Assembly: GCF_003664645.1 (NCBI RefSeq)
Contig: NZ_RCHC01000006.1
Location: forward strand, 124,001-188,000
Direction: 5' to 3'
DNA from: Acinetobacter chengduensis
GTDB lineage: Bacteria > Pseudomonadota > Gammaproteobacteria > Pseudomonadales > Moraxellaceae
DNA: 64,000 bases
Below are positions 2,794 through 63,248 of this stretch, piece after piece. The translations under genes were made by a program, and so were the position numbers. The notes beneath the pieces were generated by a model. The model saw nothing but the letters and a program-made list of their open reading frames with translations. It was not told where the DNA came from and ran no database searches. Numbering within the stretch: the stretch's first letter is position 1; each line of letters begins with the position of its first letter.

Positions 2794-3444
2794 TTAGATA
2801 CCGTATTTCACACGGTAATCTTCCATTTTCGCTAAAGCGTCAGTTTCACCTTTTGCTTCTAAATAATTCATTAAGTCTTTCATCGTGATTAGAGCATGTA
2901 CTGGAATTTCTAATTCTTTTTGTACTTCTTGAATTGCAGAAAGTTCACCTTGGCCTTTTTCTTGACGGTCTAATGCCACCAATACACCTGCAATTTGAGC
3001 ACCTGCATTTTTAAGAATGGTCACCACTTCACGAATCGCAGTTCCAGCAGTGATCACGTCATCAATGATCCACACTTTTTTACCCGCAACCGAAGCACCT
3101 ACCAACACACCGCCTTCGCCGTGATCTTTTGCTTCTTTACGGTTAAAACCCCAAGGTACGCTCACCGCATGGTTTTGTGACAATGCCACAGCAGTTGCCG
3201 CAACAAAAGGAATCCCTTTATATGCTGGGCCAAAAATCACCTCAACATTTTCGCATTCAGTTAATTTGGCCGCATAGCCAGAAGCAAGACCTGTTAACGC
3301 TTCGCCATCATTAAGTAACCCTGCATTAAAAAAATAAGGACTCACACGACCCGATTTTAAAGTAAACTCACCAAATTTAAGCACACCACGTGATAATGCG
3401 AGTTCGATAAAAGCTTGTGGATTAAATGCCGCTTGCGCTGTCAT
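2794..3444 (-). CDS. pyrE: Orotate phosphoribosyltransferase
   Basis: PyrE joins orotate to PRPP, giving orotidine monophosphate in pyrimidine synthesis. The PRPP-binding motif is clear as [16 protein letters not shown] (around residue 125), and [14 protein letters not shown] carries the usual catalytic-loop lysine and neighbours. [16 protein letters not shown] near the N-terminus is also typical. From the ATG at 3444 the protein is 216 residues and has a GGAG ribosome site eight bases upstream. Two further in-frame starts (ATG at 3456, and one at 3486) lie upstream, but no better ribosome site is seen for them. The gene is divergent from the exonuclease III gene, whose ATG at 3485 is only 40 bases away, so the promoters must overlap. 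Confidence 0.95.
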
Positions 3445-3484
3445 AGGGTGCTCCATTTTTTTAAGTTTGAGGTTAAACCTGAGC

Positions 3485-4303
3485 ATGATACCAAAGAGTA
3501 GCTATCCAAGTGATCAAAAAATTCTGCGTGTCGTTTCAATTAACGTAAACGGCTTACGTTCGGCAGAGAAAAAAGGGATTTTTGATTGGATGGCAACATC
3601 CGATGCGGATGTGATTTGTATGCAAGAATCTCGAATTACCCATGAGCAATGGACAGATAAATTTAAACCCGAAGGTTGGTTTACTCATTTATTCCCTGCT
3701 GAACGCCCAGGCTATGCAGGTACGGCTATTTATAGTCGCTATCCGTTTGTCTCTGTGACCAATGGACTTGGCTTTGAACTCGCAGATTCACAAGGTCGCT
3801 TTATTTCTGCTGAATTTGATTTGGGCTTAGCACAGTCTGCACACATTTGTTCTTTGTACCTACCTTCAGGTTCTTCTGGCGATGAAGCCCAAGCACGTAA
3901 AGATTTATTCTTAAATGAATATAAACAAATATTAAAACAATGGCGTGATGAAAATAAATCGGTGATTGTGTGCGGTGACTACAATATCGTACATAAACGC
4001 ATTGATATTAAAAATTGGTCAGGCAACCAGAAAGCGTCAGGATGCTTGCCACATGAGCGCGCTTGGCTCGATCATATCTATGATGACTTAGGTTATGTGG
4101 ACACTTTCCGTGAAGTCCGCAAAGAAGCAGAGCTTTATTCATGGTGGTCTAACCGTGGGCAAGCTCGTGCTAAGAACGTCGGCTGGCGTATTGATTATCA
4201 AGCCTGCTCGCCAGACTGGAAAGATCGTACAGTGAATGCTTGGGTGTATAAAGAAACATGGTTCAGTGACCATGCCCCAGTCATTATTGACTACCAACTT
4301 TAA
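3485..4303 (+). CDS. xthA: Exodeoxyribonuclease III / AP endonuclease
   Basis: A 272-residue DNA-repair enzyme of the exonuclease-endonuclease-phosphatase fold, which cuts at abasic sites and trims 3-prime ends. Signature residues are visible in order: INVNGLR (Asn), CMQES (metal-binding Glu), SLYLPSGS (Tyr), [15 protein letters not shown] (catalytic Asp and Asn) and WFSDHAPV (Asp-His). The length matches the E. coli protein (268). I start at the ATG at 3485 because GAGG lies at 3469-3472; the frame also opens at a TTG at 3467, inside the pyrE leader. It is divergent from pyrE, an arrangement I know from related Acinetobacter genomes. Confidence 0.93.
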
Positions 4304-4320
4304 GCTAAAATTAACAAACT

Positions 4321-4344
4321 TTGAGTAAACAACTGTTCACTCAA
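4321..4344 (+). promoter_or_regulatory. Near-perfect 24-bp palindrome upstream of the GGA-rich RNA (possible GacA-type activating site)
   Basis: The arms TTGAGTAAACA and TGTTCACTCAA around a two-base centre differ at one pair only (TTGAGT at the left, ACTCAA at the right). GacA-dependent rsm/csr RNA genes in Pseudomonas and enterics carry an upstream palindrome (consensus TGTAAG-N6-CTTACA) roughly 60-70 bases before the transcript. This palindrome lies about that far from the proposed RNA start and has a similar 18-24 bp layout, but a different sequence from the consensus. The link to GacA is therefore inference. Confidence 0.55.
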
Positions 4345-4395
4345 TTAGTGTTAATTTCTCACAATGCATGTCGTATTTTCAGATTTATCTCCATG

Positions 4396-4573
4396 TCGAA
4401 TCAGCGCATTATTACCGCACGGCACAGGGACATGTCAGGATGACACAAAGGGATAGGACGCCGTAGGAAGAAAATAAAATAAGTGATTTATTTTACTTAT
4501 TTTCAAGGATGTGACATTGGACGTTGTAATGAGACCCGCATGATCAGGATGATTAAATGCGGGTTTTCTCTTT
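4396..4573 (+). ncRNA. CsrB/RsmZ-like small RNA that would sequester CsrA/RsmA
   Basis: No protein gene fits this stretch, but it carries eight GGA motifs in about 120 bases (4428, 4438, 4451, 4456, 4466, 4507, 4519 and 4547, first base each). Several are displayed in hairpin loops as CsrA sites should be: TGTCA-GGA-TGACA at 4433-4445, and ATCA-GGA-TGAT at 4543-4553, the latter nested in the terminator loop. A 9-bp hairpin AAAATAAGT/ACTTATTTT (4476-4484 with 4495-4503) sits in the middle. The RNA ends in CCCGCAT/ATGCGGG (4535-4563) plus T-rich sequence. RsmX/Y/Z and CsrB/C RNAs titrate the translational repressor CsrA in this way. The 5-prime end is a guess; the 3-prime end is firm. It stands between the exonuclease gene and the ArsC-like gene. 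Confidence 0.75.
4535..4573 (+). terminator. Intrinsic terminator of the GGA-rich small RNA
   Basis: CCCGCAT (4535-4541) pairs with ATGCGGG (4557-4563), followed by TTTTCTCTTTTTT. The 15-base loop holds an inner ATCA-GGA-TGAT hairpin, so the terminator also displays a CsrA-type site. Confidence 0.85.
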
Positions 4574-4815
4574 TTTAAGCGGTTCTCTTTTTTCTTGTTG
4601 TTTTCCCATATATTAATATTCTGCACATCAGTCACTTATTTTCAATTTTTCTTCTGCTTTTAGTTTCTTCTACTTTTATAAGAATATTAATTCGCTGAGA
4701 TTTCAGCAAAGTGACGGTTCTAAGTCAGTTTCATGACAGAATAGAACGATACGATCGAATTGATTCAGCGAGCGCCATCCCCTATTATTTTCAAACTGAT
4801 TAAGGATCTTTGTCT

Positions 4816-5163
4816 ATGCTTAAAATTTACGGCATTAAAAACTGTAGCACCATGAAAAAAGCGTTTGATCTACTGAATGAATTGGGCCTTGCCTATGAAT
4901 TTCATGATTATAAAAAACAAGGAATTGATGCCACACATGTGAGTGCATGGTTAGATGCCAAAGGCAGTGACATTATTTTAAATAAAAAAGGCACCACATG
5001 GAAAAAACTCAGTGAAGCAGAGCAACAGCAAGCATTGTCGAGTCAAGATCAGCTGATTGCTACTCTCACCACACACAGCAGTATGATTAAACGCCCAGTA
5101 CTTGAAACGGAACAAGGCTTGATTGTAGGTTTTGATGAAGCGACTTATCGAGCTTTAAAATAA
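4816..5163 (+). CDS. ArsC/Spx-family protein (YffB-like)
   Basis: A 115-residue thioredoxin-fold protein. It opens MLKIYGIKNCSTMKKAFDLL, with a single cysteine in a CST context at residue 10, and carries GTTWKKLSE and MIKRPVLE, all matching the YffB branch of the arsenate reductase/Spx family. YffB proteins have unclear function; some use glutathione, and most are not true arsenate reductases. The ATG at 4816 has AAGGA upstream at 4802-4806; the frame could also begin at TTG 4810. It is a single gene, convergent with the DUF2147 gene and sharing a bidirectional terminator. Confidence 0.88.
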   Translation: MLKIYGIKNCSTMKKAFDLLNELGLAYEFHDYKKQGIDATHVSAWLDAKGSDIILNKKGTTWKKLSEAEQQQALSSQDQLIATLTTHSSMIKRPVLETEQGLIVGFDEATYRALK

Positions 5164-62594: not shown

Positions 62595-63248
62595 ATGTCG
62601 ATACGCGATGAACGTAAACAACAAAGTCGACAAGCACTTTTAGATGCAGCCTTAACACTCAGTGGGCAAGGGCGTGCCTTTAGCAGTATGAGTCTGCGTG
62701 AAATTACCAAAGCCGCCAACTTAGTGCCCACAGCGTTTTATCGGCACTTTAATGATATGGATGAGCTGGGTTTAGAACTGGTCGATCAAACCGCCTTACA
62801 GCTCAAACAAATGCAATATCAAATGGGACAAGTGGTTCAACATCAGCCCGACACACGCATTCAAAACTGTATTCAGCTACTGTTTAAACATATTCAAATG
62901 CACCCAGAGCCTTGGATTTTTTTTATTGCAGAACGCTGGGGTGGCTCGGCATGTTTACGCTATGCCATACAACGTGAGATTCAATATTTAACCACCGATT
63001 TAAGTGCAGATCTGGGCCGTACCCAAACCCTAAATCACATTCATCTACAGCATGATTTACAGGTCTTGTCGCAAATATTAATGAGCTTGGCTTTCAATTG
63101 GGCCATGAGCTGGATGGACTTACAGCGCTCTGTTAGCCCTGAAGAACTTGGTGCGCAACAAGAACAACTCAAACTCGGCGCAATTACTCAAGTTCAACTG
63201 CTCTTCCGTGGGATTTTGCATTGGGATCGCAATCAGTCATCGGTATAA
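62595..63248 (+). CDS. FabR-like TetR-family regulator
   Basis: A 217-residue DNA-binding protein. The N-terminal helix-turn-helix reads SRQALLDAALTLSGQGRAFSSMSLREITKAANLVPTAFYRHFNDMDELGLELVDQ, very close in pattern to E. coli FabR, which controls unsaturated fatty acid genes fabA/fabB. The C-terminal half also matches (IREIQYL and ILHWDRNQ equivalents). The ligand would be acyl-CoA/ACP. I start at ATG 62595 with GGAA upstream; the frame opens at TTG 62559. In this genus the gene often sits beside a desaturase gene, but that is not in view here. Confidence 0.8.
   Translation: MSIRDERKQQSRQALLDAALTLSGQGRAFSSMSLREITKAANLVPTAFYRHFNDMDELGLELVDQTALQLKQMQYQMGQVVQHQPDTRIQNCIQLLFKHIQMHPEPWIFFIAERWGGSACLRYAIQREIQYLTTDLSADLGRTQTLNHIHLQHDLQVLSQILMSLAFNWAMSWMDLQRSVSPEELGAQQEQLKLGAITQVQLLFRGILHWDRNQSSV

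Follow-up and report, generated by a model that had tools for sequence, protein, structure and literature searches.

The window analysed here, a 64,000-nucleotide stretch of the Acinetobacter chengduensis genome, holds between an xth-like gene and an ArsC-family gene a non-coding segment that the first-pass annotation proposed as a GGA-rich small RNA of the CsrB/RsmZ type. Does this segment encode an RNA that titrates CsrA, and if so, what controls it? Read directly, the sequence carries GGA at 4428, 4438, 4451, 4456, 4466, 4507, 4519 and 4547. All eight fall within the 122 bases of 4428–4549, in agreement with the annotated density of eight motifs in about 120 non-coding bases. The two loops described in the annotation are likewise present: a TGTCA/TGACA stem (4433–4445) and an ATCA/TGAT stem (4543–4553) are perfect and each holds a GGA in its loop, and the second is nested, as had been noted, inside the loop of the terminator stem 4531–4541/4557–4567. 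Shuffles of 4396–4573 (178 nt) average 5.1 GGA (sd 1.4) when dinucleotides are preserved and 3.4 when only mononucleotides are, the latter reaching at least eight in 16 of 2000 cases. Because 92 of 2000 dinucleotide shuffles also reach eight, the count alone is mildly unusual and is weak evidence; the strong evidence is conservation. Eight GGA is also the maximum for any 178-nt stretch of the window, whichever the strand, and the 57 of 63822 plus-strand positions with eight are just the number covering the 4396–4573 site, with none on the minus strand.

The stretch 4320–4620 is matched in 93 of 99 genomes of the genus, and the alignment of this gap across Acinetobacter, called for in the annotation, shows the GGA motifs kept, the opposite of free drift beside conserved flanking genes. 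Seven motifs are invariant in all 93 aligned rows and the eighth in 92, while the linkers drift. Within 4406–4569, 23 of 24 GGA columns are invariant as against 53 of 140 other columns (Fisher 3.9e-8), and before the terminator the figures are 20 of 21 and 31 of 105 (1.4e-8). Individual rows carry eight (62 rows), nine (29 rows) or ten (2 rows) GGA. The exact pattern of the 3′ part of the RNA recovers 104 stretches in GTDB species genomes, A. baumannii and A. baylyi among them; 79 of the 80 listed matches carry the name Acinetobacter and the other Moraxellaceae. No annotated feature lies under the match in four matching A. baumannii records of a plasmid collection, three of which are chromosome-sized. 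The order xth-like gene, RNA, ArsC-family gene, all on the same strand, holds at every one of the 30 loci examined out of the 93 in the genus.

Four helices are kept in the alignment: an outer stem, an AGGAT hairpin, an AT-rich stem, and a terminator with a nested AGGAT hairpin (Table 1). Over 82 distinct rows, 93.2% of the cells are paired, compared with 89.5% in shuffles and 33–47% when the structure is slid along the alignment, percentages that lean towards the structure because the consensus was partly chosen from the same rows; covariation scores 0.118, as opposed to 0.065 for the shuffles. The closing pair of the hairpin at 4433–4445 is unpaired in 7 of the 82 rows, and six others have gaps there. 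For the AT-rich stem, where the rows are misaligned, each sequence was folded singly, which gave a mean fold z of −2.06 over 93 rows, with 47 of the 93 below −2. RNAalifold on the whole alignment returns the outer stem and terminator only, and the single-sequence fold of the window RNA is weak to mild (z −1.58), with GGA 4507 and 4519 partly paired in the prediction. A CsrA site inside a terminator loop had been called unusual in the annotation. The motif is there, but in Acinetobacter it is a regular feature rather than an oddity, since all 93 rows keep it and a second RNA family of the genus, described below, has it too.

Table 1. Features of the RNA locus and of its candidate regulators (positions are those of the window).
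Feature	Positions	Strand	Evidence or remark
Upstream gene, xth-like (Exo_endo_phos)	3467–4303	+	Pfam PF03372
Conserved inverted repeat, core AGTGAACAnnTGTTCACT in genus, candidate operator	4322–4343	.	Centred at 4332.5, about −86.5 from predicted start
Right half of ancestral GacA box, here CTCACA	4358–4363	+	Genus consensus CTTACA; full box at same place in relatives
Predicted −10 box CATTAT	4407–4412	+	Columns C93 A93 T85 T88 A93 T93 of 93
Predicted small RNA, eight GGA	4419–4569	+	23/24 GGA columns invariant; covariance model R1 187.7 bits; both ends predicted
Outer stem ACGGC (4419–4423)/GCCGT (4460–4464), enclosing four GGA	4419–4464	+	Pairing in 98.5% of cells; one pair compensated
Hairpin TGTCAGGATGACA, GGA in loop	4433–4445	+	Closing pair UA 47, GC 16, AU 4, CG 1, UG 1
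AT-rich stem without GGA; sequence drifts, fold kept	4476–4503	+	8/10 pairs changed on both sides; 78.5% of cells paired
Rho-independent terminator; nested hairpin with GGA 4547–4549 in loop	4531–4567	+	99.6% of cells paired; 10/15 pairs never vary
Downstream gene, ArsC-family	4810–5163	+	Pfam PF03960
FabR/DesT-like TetR-family repressor gene, candidate regulator of the repeat	62595–63248	+	51% identical to L239 repressor

Relatives of the RNA occur beyond the main alignment. In genus genomes missed by the DNA search, the covariance model R1 finds three copies in one (G032) and one in another (G077); there is no R1 match in G014, G030 and G031, from which the RNA is by this model absent, and the only match in G097 is weak and belongs to the second RNA family. 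At E ≤0.01 R1 matches 140 of 299 genomes of the family in 9 of 16 genera, a count that includes two loci of genus g9 (L301 and L303) with one GGA each, judged false. Most relatives in other genera carry 8–10 GGA per locus, and 13 loci examined in genera g8, g10 and g12 carry 9–10 each. The flanking genes in g10 are the same as at the window locus in 4 of 4 loci, and in g5 the RNA lies within a few hundred bases of csrA in both matching genomes (G117, G138). One genome of g8 (G105) has four copies, of which L285, L286 and L287, on three contigs, are near-identical in RNA and promoter and are a recent duplication of the sponge, the fourth (L288) being diverged; another genome (G109) has two. A search of 115 genomes of the order with strict filters returned our own genome only and nothing in the other 114.

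These relatives place the start of the transcript. The GacA box has the motif TGTAAG-N6-CTTACA and lies near −65 in RsmX, RsmY and RsmZ of Pseudomonas. Scored with this motif, 19 of 22 relatives have a box with 10–12 of 12 matches centred 64.5–65.5 bp before ACGGC, the remaining three being the second copies in L299, L300 and L304, and 15 of the 19 boxed relatives have a CATAAT-like hexamer (at least 4 of 6 matches) at the place of 4407–4412. Because of the positions of the box and hexamer, the start likely lies near A4419 rather than at 4396, giving a transcript of about 4419–4569. The annotated interval of 4396–4573 thus stands for the GGA part and not for the start, 4396–4417 being promoter by comparison with relatives. 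The terminator is kept in 93 rows, and the promoter is predicted from conservation only. We gave up an alternative promoter, with its −35 at 4358 and its −10 near 4382, once relatives showed a GacA box and a −10 at 4407–4412. Among the 93 rows from Acinetobacter, 4–6 of 6 matches remain in the right half-box and 0–2 of 6 in the left, which is chance level, so that a full GacA box, usual though not obligatory for Csr/Rsm sRNAs, is absent upstream of the RNA in these rows. The RNA is likely switched on by GacA in the relatives, and a GacA-like regulator is encoded in our genome (267.3 bits, cut-off 280). GacA control would then be ancestral, with Acinetobacter keeping half the box.

To which class does the RNA belong? 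The Rfam covariance search suggested by the annotation was run and no family fits: there were no matches in the window at the gathering threshold and chance-like matches only at E ≤10 around the RNA, while the same search found E. coli csrB, the positive control, at 380 bits. The library presumably includes the RsmX, RsmY and RsmZ models. Multiple conserved GGA sites, some of them in hairpin loops, are present as in the Csr/Rsm class; the annotated CsrB/RsmZ type holds for the design and fails for membership of a curated Rfam family. With CsrB/RsmB (RF00018) the RNA shares several GGA placed in single strands as well as in hairpin loops, a terminator, a CsrA in the genome and a presumed sponge action; it differs in having about 150 nt and 8 GGA as against the 369 nt of csrB, which R1 scores at only 19.9 bits. 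With RsmX, RsmY and RsmZ it shares size class and GGA hairpins, and its relatives share the GacA box near −65; it differs by the lack of an Rfam match, the loss of the left GacA half in Acinetobacter and the silence of R1 across the rest of the order. Our genome encodes CsrA (85 aa), whose presence alone proves nothing because all 34 of 34 genomes tested carry it, including those without an R1 match. The annotated design of an RNA that binds several CsrA/RsmA dimers is supported by the GGA invariance together with csrA in the genome, the GacA boxes of relatives and the RNA beside csrA in one genus. Taken together, 4419–4569 very probably encodes a Csr/Rsm-type small RNA that would bind several CsrA dimers, with a FabR/DesT-type repressor possibly sharing its control. 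By the design it shares with CsrB and RsmZ, the RNA would be made from about A4419, fold, and present several CsrA dimers with as many as eight GGA sites, of which two lie in clear hairpin loops; titration would lower free CsrA and release CsrA target mRNAs from control.

The same columns and relatives bear on two other readings. Were the RNA a base-pairing (Hfq-type) sRNA, or a ligand of another protein for which the GGA are kept, conserved non-GGA blocks would be at home in it, and the 53 invariant columns outside GGA include several; the invariance is however centred on the GGA sites with linkers drifting between them, and strong relatives have the same number of GGA or more, which makes this reading very unlikely. 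It is very unlikely that the segment serves as an attenuator or leader for the ArsC-like gene, or forms the 3′ end of xth mRNA, with no free RNA made. Its constant same-strand position between both genes fits such a role, and the terminator might act by attenuation; but relatives in other genera stand elsewhere (beside csrA in g5, at three separate places in G105) and the RNA is preceded by its own −10 and, in relatives, by its own GacA box.

Where the Acinetobacter RNA keeps only half a GacA box, an inverted repeat lies upstream of the half-site. The repeat is a dyad with compensating changes, columns 4323 and 4342 pairing in 78 of 93 rows against a shuffled mean of 32.9, and, when one mismatch at most is allowed, its core is present in 49 of the 60 genomes searched in the genus, compared with 1 of 60 for the reversed control pattern. 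We fetched 30 loci: 21 are the promoter of the RNA, 3 lie beside crb genes and 6 lie elsewhere. In 5 of these 6 (L225, L232, L239, L240 and L241) the repeat stands between two divergent genes, one for a TetR-family protein of FabR/DesT-like type and one reductase-like, and each of these five places has three operator-like boxes (at most 3 mismatches). The nearest solved structure to the L239 repressor is DesT (E 9.5e-28), and its best NCBIfam model is FabR (117.6 bits, under the cut-off of 151). Two other assignments were discarded: the repeat as the xth terminator, because it has no T run 3′ on the plus strand and its other copies lie in promoters, and paired repeat boxes at the crb locus, which on checking belong to the FabR/DesT-like genes.

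The window encodes a repressor of this type itself. Its best NCBIfam model is FabR at 130.2 bits (cut-off 151) and its best solved structure DesT (E 1.2e-24). The promoter of its gene contains no repeat box and no reductase gene adjoins it, and the sponge RNA may therefore be one of the few remaining targets of this repressor in its own genome. DesT and FabR are sensors of acyl-CoA, both unsaturated and saturated. Through the added operator-like repeat, a FabR/DesT-type fatty-acid repressor would share control of the RNA; seated on 4322–4343 it would adjoin the lost GacA half-site and could hinder activation. Such an operator on a CsrA sponge would, if true, couple the state of the membrane lipids to the global control of carbon, and we know of no other Csr RNA under the operator of a fatty-acid sensor. 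That the repeat is read instead by CrbR/ErdR or by GacA itself is unlikely, albeit with some points in its favour: in 3 of 30 loci the repeat is upstream of an ORF adjoining an ErdR/CrbR-like gene, and CrbR, a LuxR-type regulator, requires an imperfect inverted repeat according to the available text of PMC5715377. The repeat was however not found in the stretch of acs promoter examined, and three boxes in each of the five FabR/DesT-like divergent promoters are a better fit to a TetR-family operator. In our genome the crb-side ORF has 255 aa (L210:4549–5316, plus strand), stands with the repeat upstream between a crbS-like kinase and the ErdR/CrbR-like gene, and has no NCBIfam or Pfam match; ORF and regulator are likewise found in L218 and L226.

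A second family of GGA RNAs (model R2) is present in the genus. Our genome has three copies in L315 (G000:C56:207600-212200, at 845–977, 1546–1672 and 3386–3516) and one at L320:111–233, with GacA boxes of 11–12 of 12 matches centred 65.5–67.5 bp before the model start; near-complete boxes accompany 17 of 19 elements of the family. Of 32 genomes searched, R2 has matches in 27; all belong to the genus, which supplied 28 of the 32, and the 4 from other genera give none. Matches number 1–10 per genome with weak and antisense ones counted. The family shares with the first RNA its GGA hairpins and a GGA in the terminator loop, and R1 gives one copy 22.4 bits; it differs in length (about 130 nt), in having 4–5 GGA in the four best own copies, and in occurring several times per genome and also on plasmids. 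It has no Rfam match at gathering. Elements lie on the small contigs L335, L337 and L342 (of G084, G081 and G048), and the bare elements match 274, 271 and 153 plasmid-collection records, nearly all Acinetobacter, with no annotated feature under the matches listed. The first of these elements is on pMAC and has only 3 GGA. Plasmid-borne CsrA sponges would be notable. Setting the two families side by side, we tentatively propose, as a possibility that falls somewhat short of even, that the ancestral CsrA sponge of Acinetobacter left the GacA box and now answers to a FabR/DesT-type repressor, such that membrane-lipid state sets free CsrA, with GacA driving the newer multicopy and partly plasmid-borne family.

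Earlier predictions in the genus bear on what is new here. Table 1 of PMC7366521 gives A. baumannii with RsmX, RsmY and RsmZ in brackets, the brackets marking RNAs from genome inspection that are uncharacterised experimentally, and the available part of PMC5568370 gives RsmA-regulating RNAs predicted earlier in A. baylyi ADP1 and adds two of other gene order. These share with our RNA the genus and the proposed role; the gene orders in the two ADP1 rows, as given in that part of the paper, differ from the locus of this RNA in A. baylyi, whose type strain has it between the two genes that flank it in the window. The RNA is probably one of these earlier Acinetobacter predictions. What is new is how the RNA is built, how widely it occurs in the family, that Rfam lacks it and that its promoter has changed. 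The locus was not found in the main text of A. baumannii sRNA papers, and the literature searched, in the text available, yielded no experimental Csr sRNA of Acinetobacter. CsrA is reported essential for A. baumannii on rich media (PMC12802169, in the text available) and GacSA is reported to control 674 genes (PMC5295007, likewise); the RNAs expected to join the two are, going by Table 1 of PMC7366521, known from genome inspection only. Having a precise gene with its promoter and structure, which the harmless A. baylyi shares, makes the CsrA–GacSA link testable.

Two further places in our genome have GacA-box-like sites. L316 (G000:C1:299300-301300) has two (11 of 12 matches) 270 bp apart, followed by terminator-like stems with few GGA, and these are either decayed sponges or other GacA targets. 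In L317 (G000:C1:189200-190600), on the minus strand from 606, a box with 11 of 12 matches precedes 11 GGA in 280 nt; this candidate has a terminator with a GGA in its loop and scores 17.5 bits with R1.
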